Below, piece after piece: positions 46,801 to 59,780 of a DNA stretch of 64,000 bases. Source of the stretch: Rhododendron vialii (lineage: Eukaryota > Streptophyta > Magnoliopsida > Ericales > Ericaceae); NCBI RefSeq assembly GCF_030253575.1, contig NC_080568.1:29074001-29138000 (forward strand), read 5' to 3'. The translations under genes and the position numbers were made by a program. The notes beneath the pieces are model-generated. The model was not told where the DNA came from and made no database searches. It was given only the letters and a program-made list of their open reading frames with translations. Position 1 is the stretch's first letter, and each line of letters begins with the position of its first letter.

Positions 46801-49800
46801 AGAAAGAAGAGAGAGACCGTGAAGGTCCTGAACCCTTATGGTAGGTGGTGGCAGTGTTGTTGAGCCATATGATAGGTGGACCCATGTTGCCCAGATGAAG
46901 AAAGCTTGAAAAGAAAAAACTGAAAAATCTCAATTGGACAATTTCTAAAGATATACCCTCATTGTTTTTGTTTGCAATATAGATGTATCAAGCCAAGACA
47001 TTGAGACAGGAGTGAACCCAAATTAGTTACCATAACTATTAAAAAACCATCTCAAAGAGTAATATCTGTGTAGAGACCTTCATCTGAGACAATTCCACTT
47101 GAATCATTTACTCCAGGATCTTCATCCGGAATCCATTCACCTTCTTGTAGTTTATTATTGTAGTTTCCTGCATCTTCGACAGCGCAGACCTATTTAAGCC
47201 CCTCTATAAACATAGAAATCTCTCCAGAAATGGTAAACAAATATTCTGACAACCCATCAACTGACAGACCTACGCAATCCCCATGATCTGTATCCATGGG
47301 CATACTCACACCATGTTCAGCATCAGTTTCTTGGTTGGAATATCCAGACAAATAAAGATCAATAAGTGTATCTTCCAACCTGATTTAAAATTAACTTATA
47401 TTTGTTAGCATAGAAAACTCAAGGCTTGAAACGCAAAGAGAAGAAAAGTAAAGTAGCATACCATTCTGATGGTGGAGGTGGACAATCAAGCATTGGACTG
47501 ATGTTGCACTCAATGTGGGCTGCAAGAAATGAGAAATATTTAGAAGAAAATGTCAGCCAAGCAGGTCACTGGGTTAATGCCCCAAAACAATTCAGGTACC
47601 AGCCTTTTAACACTATATAGTACAGCCCGATAACGGTCACGTGATTTGCGTCTAAGAAGCTATAAATCTTCCATCTAAGTATTTGACACAGCAAAAAATT
47701 CTATGAATTGGGTGGTGATGGGTAGCATCTTATTAGAGGGCAGTGATGGGCTGATGGCAATAGAACAATGCATAGAGACACTGAATAAGAACTGCATGCA
47801 CAACACAAACAAGTGTATGAAAAAGTAAACAATAAAATGATCCCAATCAACCACCTGTTAACTCCTGAGCAACAGGTTATTTCATGTCTCAATCTAATAG
47901 ATGAAACGGACAGATATTGTTGTCTGTTCCAGTGGAGAAATTTCATGCTCTAAATGCCATCCCATCAAGTCAAACACTCCATGACAATTGACACATAGTC
48001 AAAGTGTGATCCAAGGTGTAGTCTCTTTGTAGTTGGCAAGGAAAAGTTTTTCTAAACTCCTTCCTTGGCGTAGTGAAACTTTTTCTTGACAAAATGGTGG
48101 TCTCATACATATTTACAACTTCGATATGGCAATACTGTAACAGCATAGAAGTTAGTGCACTCATTGTATAATGTACTAATGCATATCATCTCACCTGCAG
48201 ATGGTTCCTCAGAAACAGTTCCTACTTTATATGCTTCCAAATCACCTTTAGGAGAAGTTACAAGCAGGCCAGGCTCATCTTGAGCAGAATTCTGAACACT
48301 GTCTACACACTGAAACATTTCTGATGAATCGCCCTGAAAAAAGCAACAAAATAACTTACAGTAACAAAAAAAAAAAGAAACATATCAAAGAAGAAAAATG
48401 TACAAATGAAAAGAGAACACACATCTGGAAATAGAACAATTTGTTGCCTATCAAAAAAAATATATATATATAGAACTTGTCTGCAATGCAATCAAAGATG
48501 CAATGATACCTGGGCAGATTCCAATAGCACATAATTCCCATCTTCAAATTTGTAGTAGACACCATCTGTACTACTGTAATACCAGCCCGCAGCGGGATCA
48601 TGGTAAAATCCACTACTGCAGCAAATTCAGACAGAATATTTTTTTTTTATAAGTAAATATTTATATTAAAGAAGGCATTAAGGGAATGCCACCCGTATAC
48701 AAAAAGGTCACTAAGACAAAAAGGCCCTATACACCACCAGTCGAAAAGAACAACTCAAACCACTCTAGAAAATGATCAAGGGAGGGATTACAATCACCCT
48801 TGTCCCAACTACACAAACTACTAACCACAAAACTTTTAATTTTAAATAAAGGCTTCTCGACCCCTTCGAAACATCTCGAATTCCTCTCACGCCAAATAGT
48901 CCACATCAAACAAAGAGGAATCATAGCCCATACGCGCTTTCTCTGCTTGCCCACTCTAGCACCCCTCCAAGCGATTAAAAGCTCCATAACATTTCTCGAC
49001 ATAACCCATTGTAACCCAAACCAAGATAAAGTCATGAACGTATTAACAAGTCTCTCTAACTTAGGTGATGAAATCCTTTGGTATTTTACAGTGACTTGGG
49101 CCTTAATGCAGCCTGCATCCAGGTGCAAGGGAGGAGGCTACCCCTATTTTAGTCCAATACCATGCAGAGAATAGAGAATGCAAATAATGGACCTAAGTTA
49201 CATGGATTCGGGTGCGGGTATGGTTACAAGGGTCAGGTTCATCCAAAGACATGGGGATATGCCAAGATATCATTTCTATCATTTTCTAAGATAAACAGTG
49301 TCCACAAAGTGCCTTCAGGAATTTAATGCATAATGGTGGAATTCCGCATAATTGTGGTAAATCCGAATAACAAAATATGCCTGTTTGGTGAGTGTAGCAA
49401 AATTGTGAGACACGGATCCCATATCCTTACATTTATTCCAGCGTCTAGTTGCCAACATGGGTATTCTATACTTTCTATAGGGATCCTTCTAACATGGTTA
49501 TGGACATATAGTCAACAATGATGACGCCCAGTAGATTGGATATGGGGTCACCAATCGTGAAAATAGATCATCATAATCACATGACTTCTTTGCATTACCA
49601 TGGTGTCAGGTAGCGAGCGTGCGGCCCAGAACATCTACAGGTATCACTTATTGCCTCAAACTTCCATGGCCTGAAAGGCCATAGTCCCTTTAAGAAGCTA
49701 GCTGTCGAGGGTCACCTCCACATAGCTAGTTAGCAGGCCAAGGTCTCGTTCGTTAATGAAATTAACCAGACAAATCGCCCCACCAACTAAGAACGGCCAT

Positions 49801-50688
49801 GCATCACCACCCACAGAATCAAGAGAGAGCTCTCAGTCTATCACTGTAAAATTATTCCAATGTCCACCTATTTTCGTCTCCCTCCCTCTACAATGAACAG
49901 AGGGTACATTTATATGTCTTCTCTCCACTCCCCTCTCTCTGTGGTAACACACTATAGAGTAGTTCATTACTTCTGCACTTTACTTCTAGGAAATAGGAAT
50001 TTATTAATTCTCTGTAACTATTATTATTTTGCTTAGCTCATGTTTCTGACAATGTCTAGAATATGTGTTTTTTGTGCATGATCATTTGAAAAGGTTATGT
50101 GAATGACCCCATTGACAAATACCTCTGGAGTCGCCACTCATAGTCAATGCACATGAGAAGTATTCTTCGTGCAATCAGACTGCTACGATCCGGTTTTAAC
50201 TCCCAACGAACCAAACCGAACCGTAGGATACATACCATATCGGAAGATTTATCTAACATAAGACATGCTCCAGTCGTATTGAAACATAAGAGCCATACAG
50301 TAGGATTTTGACAACACTGTCCAATAAGCATGAATACATCAATAAGGATTCACAAAGAACTCAGAAGGTATGGCCGTATGAGTAACTATGAATAGGCGTT
50401 CCATCGGGGACATCCGATAAAATTGGAAAGATACAGAGAAGATTGGCAAGGCCCTTGCGCAAGGATGACACGCACAAATCGAGAAATGGTCTAAATTTTT
50501 ACTTATCCCAAAAAACTATGAATAGGCGAAACCCTAATTTGTATAACCAAAAGAAGAAAAATAGGTGATTGAATTGGAAAGAGTAATAACCTGGGATGGT
50601 AGTATAGCTGAGTTGTGTCATCCCATACGAAGGAGCATCCCTCGTTTCTCTGCGATTCCTCGGAATCTGGTTCAGTTGTTCCCGCCAT
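43840..50688 (-). CDS. OCRE and G-patch domain protein, AGGF1-like
   Basis: Ten exons: 50591-50688, 48510-48615, 48195-48333, 47462-47519, 47274-47379, 47078-47189, 46384-46656, 45534-45760, 44463-44678 and 43840-43950, giving 481 residues. Residues 15-66 form an OCRE-type aromatic repeat ([20 protein letters not shown], then [20 protein letters not shown]), a fold found in splicing-linked proteins. The middle is acidic ([13 protein letters not shown]) and then conserved ([20 protein letters not shown] and [19 protein letters not shown]), at the place AGGF1 has an FHA domain; I cannot confirm an FHA fold. The C-terminus is a G-patch (about 425-472: [20 protein letters not shown] then [10 protein letters not shown]), which activates DEAH-box helicases. 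A nuclear RNA-processing role is likely by family. Intron 5 is only about 84 bp. Intron 1 (48616-50590) carries a LINE tail, an 18S rRNA fragment and a U6 copy. Confidence 0.88.
45195..45345. repeat. imperfect direct repeat in a G-patch gene intron
   Basis: Two units of roughly 75 bp start AAATGTTGCAGAAA and carry GCACAG(C/T)AGGA and AGGGAACAGTTT followed by a T-rich stretch and CAAATCT. They differ by small indels. It lies between exons 8 and 9 of the gene. Confidence 0.65.
48639..49100 (-). mobile_element. LINE (L1-type) 3' fragment
   Basis: On the minus strand, residues read from 49128 down to 48727 match the C-terminal region of plant LINE ORF2 proteins: AVPLCLMW-like [20 protein letters not shown], then [16 protein letters not shown], ending in a stop. 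A short 3' untranslated stretch and an A run (T run 48639-48648 on plus) close it. Only the 3' end is present, as usual for LINE insertions cut short at the 5' side. It sits in intron 1 of the G-patch gene in sense orientation, 24 bp from exon 2. Confidence 0.8.
49606..49842 (-). pseudogene. nuclear 18S rRNA fragment (pseudogene) in antisense on the plus strand
   Basis: On the minus strand about 235 bp match the part of 18S rRNA that runs from the GAGAGCTCT...TTGATTCT segment through GGTGCATGGCCGTTCTTAGT-type sequence (here TGGTGATGCATGGCCGTTCT), ACGAGACCT, GCTAACTAGCTATG and GACTATGGCC to the GGGCCGCACG...CGCTAC segment. The order is unbroken but there are many substitutions and small indels, largely of C-to-T or G-to-A type. 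It cannot be a working rRNA. It lies in intron 1 of the G-patch gene, between the LINE fragment and the U6 copy. Confidence 0.88.
50384..50528. repeat. 15-bp target-site duplication around the U6 copy
   Basis: The words at 50384-50398 and 50514-50528 are identical (AACTATGAATAGGCG). Because they are perfect while the U6 copy differs from the canonical gene at several places, some of those differences may have been present in the source RNA or gene. Confidence 0.93.
50398..50500 (+). pseudogene. U6 snRNA retropseudogene
   Basis: A full-length U6 copy: the 5' stem (GTTCCATCGGGGACATCCGA here, against GTCCCTTCGGGGACATCCGA from memory), GATACAGAGAAGATT with an intact ACAGAG box, CGCAAGGATGACACGCACAA, ATCGAGAAATGGTC and a final T run. 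It departs from the conserved plant sequence where activity needs it: the AGC triad of the catalytic core reads GGC (ATTGGCAAGG for ATTAGCATGG), and other bases differ. No upstream sequence element or TATA box of plant U6 genes lies at the proper distance. A perfect 15-bp repeat AACTATGAATAGGCG flanks it (50384-50398, 50514-50528), with a short extra A-rich tail before the right copy. This is the mark of LINE-driven retrocopying. Confidence 0.93.
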
Positions 50689-51000
50689 TTCACTGAAATA
50701 TCTGAACGCATTATCTCCTAGACGTATACGGTATACATACCCATAGACCAGTTCTTGTTTGATTGTATTGTAAATTAAGAAGAGGCTATGATTCTTCACT
50801 AATTAATTAGTTACCTATAAAGGACCAGAAGAAACAAGTTTTCAATTACTGCGATACCTTTCAACAATTACTCTTGAAAGAAGAAGATTCGAACCAATTC
50901 AAAACAATGCGAAAGTGGCAAGACAATCACGAAGACGATTCGGATAAATTCAACAGTTTGAACCCTTGATATGCCAGTTCTACAGAGAAGCAATGTGCGT

Positions 51001-56155: not shown

Positions 56156-56517
56156 AGAAGTACATTTACCAAAATGAACACATGCCAAGAAAAAATGAGC
56201 ATGGCAAACAGCTCTAGCTAGAAGGCACTCCGTCCATACATTTCTTCTCTCCAAGGCTCACAGTCTCAGCTCACTAGCTACCAAAGATTAGGACACTCTG
56301 CACCATTCATATGTGGAGCACTGAATTGACCGTTGTACCCCTCCCCCCTAGTTGCCACTAGAACGACCCTTTTGAAAGAAGAAAAAAAAAACACAGTTCT
56401 CCAACTTGCTGCTTGTTCTCATACATCTGCAAAACACAGCCACCATTATCTCTTCTGTTAATAACAGAGGTCCATTTTCTCTCCTCCTAGATTTCTCCAT
56501 GTCTTCTCTTCTTTCCC

Positions 56518-56525
56518 TATATATA
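56518..56525 (+). promoter_or_regulatory. TATA box of the raffinose synthase gene
   Basis: CTATATATA lies about 100 bp upstream of the ATG at 56625, the expected place for a plant TATA box with a leader of some 70 nt. In-frame ATGs at 56406 and 56499 lie upstream of it, so they should not be in the main transcript. Confidence 0.7.
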
Positions 56526-56624
56526 CCAGCCTTCCTTTCTTTCCCTGATCAAACCATCACAAGCTTCCTTCCTTCCTCTTCTCTGTCTCTCGCTTGTGCG
56601 CGTGCAAACACACAAATCGTTAGC

Positions 56625-59600
56625 ATGCCTCCAAGCTTGAGCAAAGGCGGCATCGAAGTAGCGGGGATTGAGGACGGTCAAGCATCATCCTCGATCACCC
56701 TGGAAGGATCAACTTTTTTCGCCAATGGCCATCCTGTTCTCACTCACGTCCCTTCTAACATCATCTCAACACCCTCTCCTTTCCTCTCCAAAAACTTGAA
56801 CAAAAACGCAGTCGGCTGCTTCGTTGGCTTCGACGCGACCAAGTTGAAAAGTCGCCACGTGGCATCCTTGGGCAAGCTCAGAAACGTAAACTTCATGAGC
56901 ATATTCAGGTTCAAGGTCTGGTGGACCACCCACTGGGTTGGAACCCAAGGAAAAGACATCCAACCCGAGACCCAAATGGTGCTCCTTGAAAAGTCCACTT
57001 CGGGTCGTCCCTACGTTTTGCTACTTCCAATCCTGGAGGAACAGTTCAGAGCTTCCCTACAGGCTGGCAGCGACGACGACGTGGACATCTGCGTGGAGAG
57101 TGGGTCCACCAAAGTACGGGCAAACAACTTCAGAAGCTGTTTGTACATGCACGTCGGTGACGACCCATATCAACTGGTCAAGGACGCCATGAAGGTCATT
57201 AGGGTCCATTTGGGAACATTCAAATTACTAGAAGAAAAATGCCCTCCAAATATAGTGGACAAATTCGGATGGTGCACTTGGGATGCATTTTACCTTAAGG
57301 TACACCCCAAAGGGGTGTGGGAAGGTGTCAAGGGCCTAGTGGAAGGTGGGGCCCCTCCGGGATTAGTCCTAATAGATGATGGGTGGCAGTCTATTGCCCA
57401 TGATGATGATGACCCCACCAATGGCCAAGAAGGGATGAATCGGACGGCCGCAGGTGAGCAAATGCCATGTAGGCTAATAAAATTTGAAGAGAACCATAAG
57501 TTTAGGGACTATGTTAGTCCTAGGGTACCCCATGATAAGGGCATGGGGGCCTTTGTTAGGGACATTAAAGAGGAATTTAAGAGTGTAGAAAATGTGTATG
57601 TTTGGCATGCACTTTGTGGGTACTGGGGTGGGATTAGGCCTAACGTCAATGGCATGCCTGAGTGTAGGGTAATTTCTCCCAAGTTATCGGAGGGTTTGGA
57701 GATGACTATGGAGGATCTGGCCGTGGACAAGATTGTGAACAATGGGGTCGGGTTGGTGCCGCCGGAGACAGTGGACCGGATGTACGAAGGGCTCCACTCG
57801 CACCTCGAGTCTGTCGGGATCGATGGTGTCAAGGTTGACGTGATACATGTGAGTGTTTTCTCGAACCCCCTCTCTCTCACACGCGTTGCTATACGCGTTC
57901 GCTTGTTATGCATTTTTAGGCTCGCACTTTCCCGACGCTAACGCTTTCACAAACAACTATACAACTTTTGTGCATTCAGTTCTTGCAATTTTTTGTGCAT
58001 GGAGTAGTGCTAGTAATAATAAACAGCAATTTTGTGCATGCAGATACTTGAAATGCTAGCAGAGGAATATGGTGGGAGGGTGGAGTTGGCTAAAGCATAT
58101 TACAAGGCATTGACTGATTCAGTGAGGAAACATTTCAAAGGGAATGGGGTGATTGCTAGCATGGAGCACTGCAATGACTTCATGTACCTCGGAACCGAGG
58201 CGATCGCTCTCGGTCGCGTAGGTACGTGTTCATTGATCAGATTTCAAAAGTGTTCATTGAGAGAAACTATATTAAGAAATTGCTCTGTTTCAATGTTGAC
58301 AGGAGATGATTTCTGGTGCACTGATCCGTCCGGGGACCCGAACGGGACCTTCTGGCTCCAAGGCTGCCACATGGTGCATTGCGCGTACAACAGCCTGTGG
58401 ATGGGGAACTTCATCCACCCTGACTGGGACATGTTCCAGTCGACTCACCCTTGCGCCGGATTCCACGCCGCGTCCCGAGCCATCTCCGGCGGACCCATCT
58501 ACGTTAGCGACTCAGTCGGGAAGCACGATTTCCAGTTGCTCAGGAGCTTGGTGTTACCTGATGGGTCTGTCTTGCGCTGCCGGTGTTACGCGCTCCCGAC
58601 CCGAGATTGTTTGTTTGAAGATCCGTTGCATGATGGCAAAACCATGCTCAAGATTTGGAACCTCAACAAAGTAAGACTCTCTCTCTCTCTCTCTCTCACA
58701 CACATTCACACATATTAGAAATCTCGAAACGTAGGAATCTAAGGCACGACCGTGCAACATTGATGGTCCTAATGTACGTACTAGGACAGGGAGAGAACTT
58801 CTGGGAAACGGAGGCTGTCACGTCTCTCTTAGTGAACCCAGGGACCATTACCAAGCATGGACGGCCTGAATGGGGCCAACACCAATGTTGTCCCTTAAGG
58901 GATAGCAGGGTCCCGGGCTTTTAAATAGGATAGATGTTAACAAGTGCCCCTAGAGCAATACTGGTTACGTGAGGAGGCAAAAAGAATAGGGTTGTGGAAC
59001 ATTTTTGTTTTGTTAAAAATCACTCCTACGATGTGATTCGATCAAGAATTTCGGATTCGCAAACCAGCTCTTCTATGATGTCCCGGTGAATGGTTCATTC
59101 CTCCGAACCGTAAACTAAAACCACCTTTGACATTTCCATATTTTGTTCATCAAGCAGTACTTAAGCCATTCTTCTAATCCAATTTTTCTCTGGCTTGAAT
59201 CTCCAAACAGTTCACTGGAGTTCTTGGGGCTTTTAACTGCCAAGGAGGGGGATGGTGCCCAGAATCCAGGCGAAACATAAGTGCAAGCCATTGTTCACAC
59301 ACTGTGACCTGTTTGGCTGGCCCAAAAGATGTAGAATGGGCCACTGGCGAAAACCCAATTCCCATCAAAGGAGTTGACACTTTTGCCATATACATGTCCC
59401 AACAAAAGGAAATAAAACTATTGAAGCCATCAGAAAGCCTGGAAATTTCCCTCCAGCCATTTGACTATGAACTTCTCACAATCTCTCCTGTCAAGAATTT
59501 ACCGGGTAAAGCGGTCCAGTTTGCTCCGATCGGATTGGTCAACATGCTCAACTCCGGTGGTGCGCTCCAGACGCTAGAGTTCAATGATCATGGGGGTTCG

Positions 59601-59780
59601 GTACTAGTTGGAGTGAGGGGTGCAGGGGAGATGAAGGCTTTTGCATCAGAAAAGCCGGTGATGTGCCAAATTGATGGTGCGGATGTGGATTTCTATTATG
59701 ATTATGACGATCGGATGGTCACGGTTCAAGTTCCGTGGCCCAATTATTCGAGACTATCGTGGATCAAGTACTTGTTTTGA
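56625..59780 (+). CDS. RFS5: raffinose synthase (galactinol-sucrose galactosyltransferase), RFS5 type
   Basis: Four exons, 56625-57848, 58044-58221, 58303-58670 and 59211-59780, encode 779 residues; pea raffinose synthase, as I recall it, is 798. The enzyme moves galactose from galactinol to sucrose in the cytosol, making raffinose in maturing seeds and under drought or cold. It belongs to family GH36. Landmarks are FRFKVWWTTHWVGTQGKDIQ (about 90-110), FGWCTWDAFYLKVHPKGVWE (about 212-231), IDDGWQSIAHDDDDPTN (about 248), GVKVDVIH (about 401-408, with the expected nucleophile Asp) and GRVGDDFWCTDPSGDPNGTF (from about 465, with the expected acid/base Asp). The end LNSGG...FASEKPV...DYDDRMVTVQVPWP matches too. 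MPPSLSKGG is chosen as start by likeness to known N-termini and by the TATA box at 56518. A CT/CA microsatellite opens intron 3. A decayed copy of a promoter segment lies 1.3 kb upstream. Confidence 0.95.

Follow-up and report, generated by a model that had tools for sequence, protein, structure and literature searches.

The window analyzed here, a 64-kb stretch of DNA (G000:C12:29074001-29138000), comes from a genome that was searched as 532.6 Mb in 13 contigs. It contains a full-length copy of the spliceosomal U6 snRNA, flanked by an exact 15-bp repeat and followed by a short stretch that is not U6 (Table 1). The copy probably lies antisense within intron 1 of an OCRE-like gene, about 60 nt in, according to an inferred gene model: the end of a minus-strand open reading frame (ORF) resembles the start of the OCRE domain (PF17780, E 0.013, 16 bits against a cut-off of 24.7), and a CAG/GT donor was spotted by eye near 50590. 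The flanks of the insertion, joined into a 472-nt query, matched their own locus alone, and no second, empty copy of the insertion site was found in the genome. A diverged 18S rRNA fragment lies about 550 nt from U6 in the same presumed intron, with no ACTTACC-An tail visible by eye at its 3' side. The window also holds a raffinose synthase/seed imbibition protein gene.

Table 1. Features of the window, in window coordinates.
Feature	Position	Strand	Basis
18S rRNA fragment, diverged	49628-49848	-	RF01960, 146.5 bits
Target-site duplication, first copy AACTATGAATAGGCG	50384..50398	+	exact string
U6 snRNA copy, full length	50398-50500	+	Rfam RF00026, 98.3 bits, E 2.9e-24
ACAGAGA of U6, unchanged	50433-50439		direct reading
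Catalytic AGC of U6, changed to GGC	50445-50447		A48G
ACTTATCCC, putative L1-type LINE 3' terminus	50501..50509	+	edit distance to LINE word
AAAA, poly(A) tail remnant	50510..50513	+	direct reading
Target-site duplication, second copy AACTATGAATAGGCG	50514..50528	+	exact string
Host gene, probable end of its first coding exon, with a partial OCRE	50593..50718	-	below Pfam cut-off; presumed gene model
Raffinose synthase/seed imbibition protein gene	56376-59780	+	PF05691, E 9.5e-160 for ORF 56376-57941; more ORFs reaching 59780, by eye

The two copies of AACTATGAATAGGCG are exact, and no third occurs in the 64-kb window at up to two mismatches. Shuffled sequence gave a mean of 0.07 matches to this word, and none of 100 shuffles contained two. 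The repeat score of 15 around U6 was reached by 0 of 400 windows taken from the same locus off the insertion (best control, 8); this is the clean control, earlier ones having been partly contaminated by overlap with the repeats. An earlier note on this DNA had described a full-length U6-like sequence with a perfect 15-bp target-site duplication, and both descriptions hold, the Rfam match spanning the full length. It had also described U6 as bracketed by the repeats. The repeats do flank U6, but the final G of the first doubles as G1 of U6, which puts the net gain at 130 nt, and 13 nt of non-U6 sequence, ACTTATCCCAAAA (that is, ACTTATCCC-AAAA), intervene before the second. The A-rich tail before the second repeat is a short AAAA, or a run of six A's with the two opening letters of that repeat included.

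Compared with canonical U6, for which we used a sequence that is letter-identical at five loci of the genome, the window copy differs by 7 substitutions in 103 positions (6.8%): C3T, T6A, C32A, A48G, T52A, C58T, and C95T. As the earlier note had it, the ACAGAG box is intact and the AGC triad is altered. Its report that U6 promoter elements are missing was likewise borne out, a pattern search 5' of the copy yielding no USE-like or TATA-like word; a USE-like word is present at 15 of the 50 U6 loci that we read. A functional, or lately functional, U6 gene would account for the full length and the retained ACAGAGA, but it is scarcely credible given the lack of USE and TATA by pattern, the altered AGC, and a duplication on both sides. 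The copy is very probably silent and, considered alone, is an ordinary retropseudogene. Its interest comes from the recurrence of a LINE terminus on copies of oligo(U)-ended snRNAs.

The perfect duplication had been taken in the earlier note to suggest a young insertion, with alignment to the U6 genes of the same genome as a check. That alignment gave the seven substitutions listed above and did not support youth. At 6.8% divergence, an unchanged 15-bp repeat pair has a probability of 0.12. Moreover, two other copies, L020 and L026, have flanks of 94.6% identity spanning 2048 nt and show 10 mismatches between their U6 bodies in 100 positions; each nevertheless retains an exact 12-bp repeat. 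An insertion with a perfect repeat thus need not be young.

The 50 U6 loci that we read comprise 48 regions from an Rfam search and two from a DNA search; their numbers are lower bounds, since scoring covered 48 of 45,611 candidates in the Rfam search and 40 of 129 in the DNA search. Sixteen were classed as gene-type (the 15 with a USE-like word plus L048, placed by eye on its downstream sequence), and the remaining 34 were classed as promoterless copies. A copy was counted as tailed when a word at most two edits from ACTTACCAAAA lay within 24 nt of the end of the U6 match, a rule set after tails had been seen; the U6 ends of L024 and L041 were placed by hand from their repeats. Under this two-edit rule, ACTTACC-An or a near variant stands behind 12 of the 34 promoterless copies (L019, L020, L021, which is the window copy, L023, L026, L030, L031, L035, L045, L049, L055, and L108) versus 0 of the 16 gene-type loci. 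Background windows contain such a word in 1.25% of cases (n = 6492), and windows behind T-runs do so in 0.86% (n = 935). The edit distance replaced a stricter first pattern, which was found at 10 of 35 loci without a USE, 0 of 15 with one, and 1.48% of flank windows and which missed the window copy. L027, L042, and L107 appear tail-like by eye yet fall outside the two-edit rule.

Read-through from a U6 gene was considered as a source of the tail and rejected, because no sequence downstream of any gene-type locus comes as close as two edits to ACTTACCAAAA. The tail instead follows the state of the U6 3' end: with position 98 of U6 dividing intact from truncated ends, a tail is present on 12 of 22 copies in the intact class and on 0 of 12 truncated ones (Fisher 0.0018), and the remaining 10 of the 22 lie beyond two edits. 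L020 and L026 represent one insertion duplicated as DNA, which leaves 11 independent tailed copies; counting this pair once gives 11 of 21 intact ends (Fisher 0.0021). The tail of the window copy, ACTTATCCC, is two edits from ACTTACC-An, a level that 1.25% of background windows reach, and as a single copy it could have arisen by chance.

The tail word is also found at the 3' ends of LINEs. L1-type LINEs of this genome terminate in ...AAATTTTTACTTACC-An, and TTTTTACTTACCAAAAAAA occurs at 164 places in the genome at up to one mismatch versus 21 for the reversed pattern. LINE 3' sequence lies upstream of the tail word at 16 of 30 places that were fetched, four of the 16 being the reference LINEs, and ORF2 similarity (38% over 216 amino acids [aa]) adds L062 as a seventeenth. 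An ORF upstream of the tail word matches zf-RVT (E 5e-24) and stops roughly 115 nt before the ACTTACC end. As judged from sequence, a zf-RVT domain C-terminal to the reverse transcriptase together with a poly(A) end fits a plant L1-type element. A single substitution separates the window's ACTTATCCC from the terminus of the L091 LINE (GAAATTTTTGCTTATCCC-An), a link drawn after the fact; over 84 aa, the ORF2 sequences of L091 and L074 share 37% identity. The exact string TTTTTACTTATCCCAAAA occurs at the window locus and nowhere else in the genome. In the earlier note, U6 was proposed to have arrived through an RNA intermediate by means of LINE machinery. The duplication, the missing promoter, and the LINE-like 3' tail support that proposal, which overlooked the probable U6-LINE chimera.

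Ten of the LINE 3' ends (L057, L059, L060, L065, L069, L074, L078, L080, L084, and L091) share a GGGGTATGCCCC-like hairpin word and a terminal AATTTTTACTTACC, and the LINEs sharing them have widely differing ORF2 ends. The hairpin word is present in most aligned LINE ends with a fold that varies from copy to copy, and the two elements together are perhaps a recognition signal. At three further places (L072, L073, and L079), a T-run, ACTTACC, and A's stand between direct repeats near position 1500; these seem to be insertions of the LINE terminus alone, and the flanks of L072 and L073 are alike.

A simple explanation for the window copy could be that an adenylated U6 RNA was directly reverse transcribed and that ACTTATCCC represents filler or a chance sequence. 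Retrocopies may be formed in this way, since at L050 A's appear to follow U6 at once, within a GA-repeat setting, and the window tail is a mere variant of the LINE word. We nevertheless regard this explanation as quite improbable for a tail that recurs on 11 independent copies and is found on neither gene-type loci nor truncated copies. A U6-derived SINE, with all copies descending from one transcribed and retroposed master element made of U6 plus tail, would share with many SINEs the layout of an RNA body and a LINE terminus common to several copies. The tailed copies have no common substitution set and so look like separate events; furthermore, their tails vary and their duplications differ, apart from those of the DNA-duplicated pair L020/L026. 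We therefore give a U6-SINE very little credence.

Repeats that none of 400 control windows reach flank 17 of the 32 U6 copies tested (L107 and L108 left out); L050 is among the 17, and its repeat is a simple repeat. A wider search gained a repeat for L031 and for L049 (0 of 30 controls each). Truncated U6 copies with repeats also occur (L028, L040, L041, L053, and L056). In L031, the exact 19-bp repeat is followed by 29 nt of unexplained sequence ahead of the U6 5' end, which is perhaps a third template. At L036, read together with L106, an inverted, 3'-truncated U6 on the minus strand abuts a 5'-truncated LINE (87% over 1139 nt), and a 7-bp outer repeat, TACTCGA, was seen by eye; this locus is likely a twin-priming chimera in a plant.

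Tails of this kind are not limited to U6. U6atac, whose RNA also ends in a T-run, was found at five loci, two of which have LINE-like tails: L110 reads TTTTTTACTTACCAAACAAA and lacks a convincing repeat, and in L111 almost 50 nt of other sequence come first, followed by GTTTACC-An, and the repeat is an exact one of 18 bp. A third locus, L113, reads AGAAACC-An, again with no convincing repeat. U2 served as a weak control. Eight of 46 matches were read, and seven have promoter-like upstream sequence by eye; L118, the sole apparent retrocopy among the eight, has A's directly behind it and an imperfect repeat.

We consider it probable that the window U6 is a processed pseudogene, most likely of the U6-LINE chimera type, made through target-primed reverse transcription by the machinery of a plant L1-type LINE. 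The LINE endonuclease would nick the host intron, and the reverse transcriptase would begin at the poly(A) of the LINE RNA itself, copying the ACUUACC-type terminus as far as the preceding U-run. Within about ten nucleotides of the start, the nascent cDNA end would re-anneal to the identical AAAUUUUU with which U6 RNA ends, and synthesis would then continue on U6 through to its 5' end, completion leaving the 15-bp duplication. We infer both the template jump and its dependence on the U-run from sequence comparison. The terminal 8 nt of U6 are AAATTTTT, and in five of the seven LINE ends compared the same AAATTTTT stands directly, or with one T more, before ACTTACC or its counterpart. At L074, L059, and L091, this terminal match exceeds any other to the end of U6 within about 1.5 kb. 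L060 has a longer, 9-nt match 131 nt from the LINE end, L057 has an equal one 846 nt upstream, and the 8-nt match is missing from L084 and L062, indicating that pairing alone does not fix the junction.

The main rival to a template jump is that an RNA ligase joined U6 RNA to a broken LINE 3' end and that the fused RNA was then reverse transcribed. Ligation would yield the same product, namely, a full U6, a LINE 3' end, poly(A), and a duplication, and it has been argued for human U6/L1 chimeras in the available text of a paper citing Moldovan et al. 2019 (PMC13174262). It would, however, require breakage of the LINE RNA at nearly one place, the U-run, on about eleven independent occasions. None of 55 loci (48 U6, L107, L108, and five U6atac) had, against the LINE ends taken for comparison, a sense LINE match of more than 30 nt starting within 60 nt behind the RNA copy, so that no longer LINE body directly follows U6 or U6atac there. 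We hold ligation to be unlikely and retain the template jump.

A more specific proposal concerns the LINE RNA itself, which would end in AAAUUUUUACUUACC-An, with the terminal U-run acting as a built-in jump site that catches oligo(U)-ended pol III RNAs (U6 and U6atac). The 3' ends of these RNAs mimic that of the LINE, and they would thus be caught at a nearly fixed junction. We advance this tentatively, as a possibility with slightly less than even chances.

Several known systems resemble parts of this picture. Vertebrate U6/LINE chimeric pseudogenes, among which U6 and U6atac are favored, likewise carry A's and the 3' end of a LINE behind a U6 copy whose own 3' end is intact, the whole lying between duplications, according to the sections consulted of Doucet et al. 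2015 (PMC4476161). The same sections describe 3'-truncated and inverted, twin-priming-like U6 copies; L028, L040, L041, L053, and L056 resemble the former class, and L036 resembles the latter. The vertebrate chimeras, so far as those sections go, contain 5'-truncated LINE pieces of varied length, whereas here the piece is nearly always the last 7 to 10 nt, joined at the shared AAATTTTT, and the host is a plant. In the WEIRD/MGL chimeras of Magnaporthe, a LINE reverse transcriptase also switches from its own RNA to another RNA at preferred sites; in the extracts available, those LINE pieces span 230 to 5461 nt, switching occurs preferentially at GCC*A/U, and microhomology was absent according to the authors, unlike the situation here (Gogvadze et al. 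2007, PMC2104539).

Among plants, retrocopies of dicot mRNAs with duplications and poly(A) have been credited to L1-like machinery; their sources are mRNAs, and the portions consulted of that study describe neither an snRNA nor a LINE tail (Zhu et al. 2016, PMC4838847). Plant L1-clade LINEs also have poly(A) ends, and some lineages have a conserved 3' end shared with SINEs. The conserved end that the consulted part of that report gives for grasses is a hairpin with CGAG, whereas here it is the terminus AAATTTTTACTTACC, riding on U6 (Ohshima 2013, PMC3747384). No report of a plant U6-LINE chimera was found by title or abstract among the best-ranked literature matches, which lie mostly outside subscription papers. 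What looks new relative to the vertebrate U6/LINE chimeras is that the host is a plant and that the terminal junction, in the shared AAATTTTT, is nearly fixed.

These observations bear on how LINE tails come to be joined to small RNAs and on the choice between template switching and RNA ligation; the text available of PMC13174262 names two models for mammalian U6/L1, one of them being ligation before reverse transcription. If our reading is correct, U6/LINE chimeras would reach from vertebrates to a flowering plant, and U6 and U6atac would be favored because their oligo(U) end equals the U-run just inside the LINE poly(A). Should the U-run indeed be a built-in jump site, the sequence of the LINE 3' end would decide which small RNAs are captured and made into SINE-like fusions.
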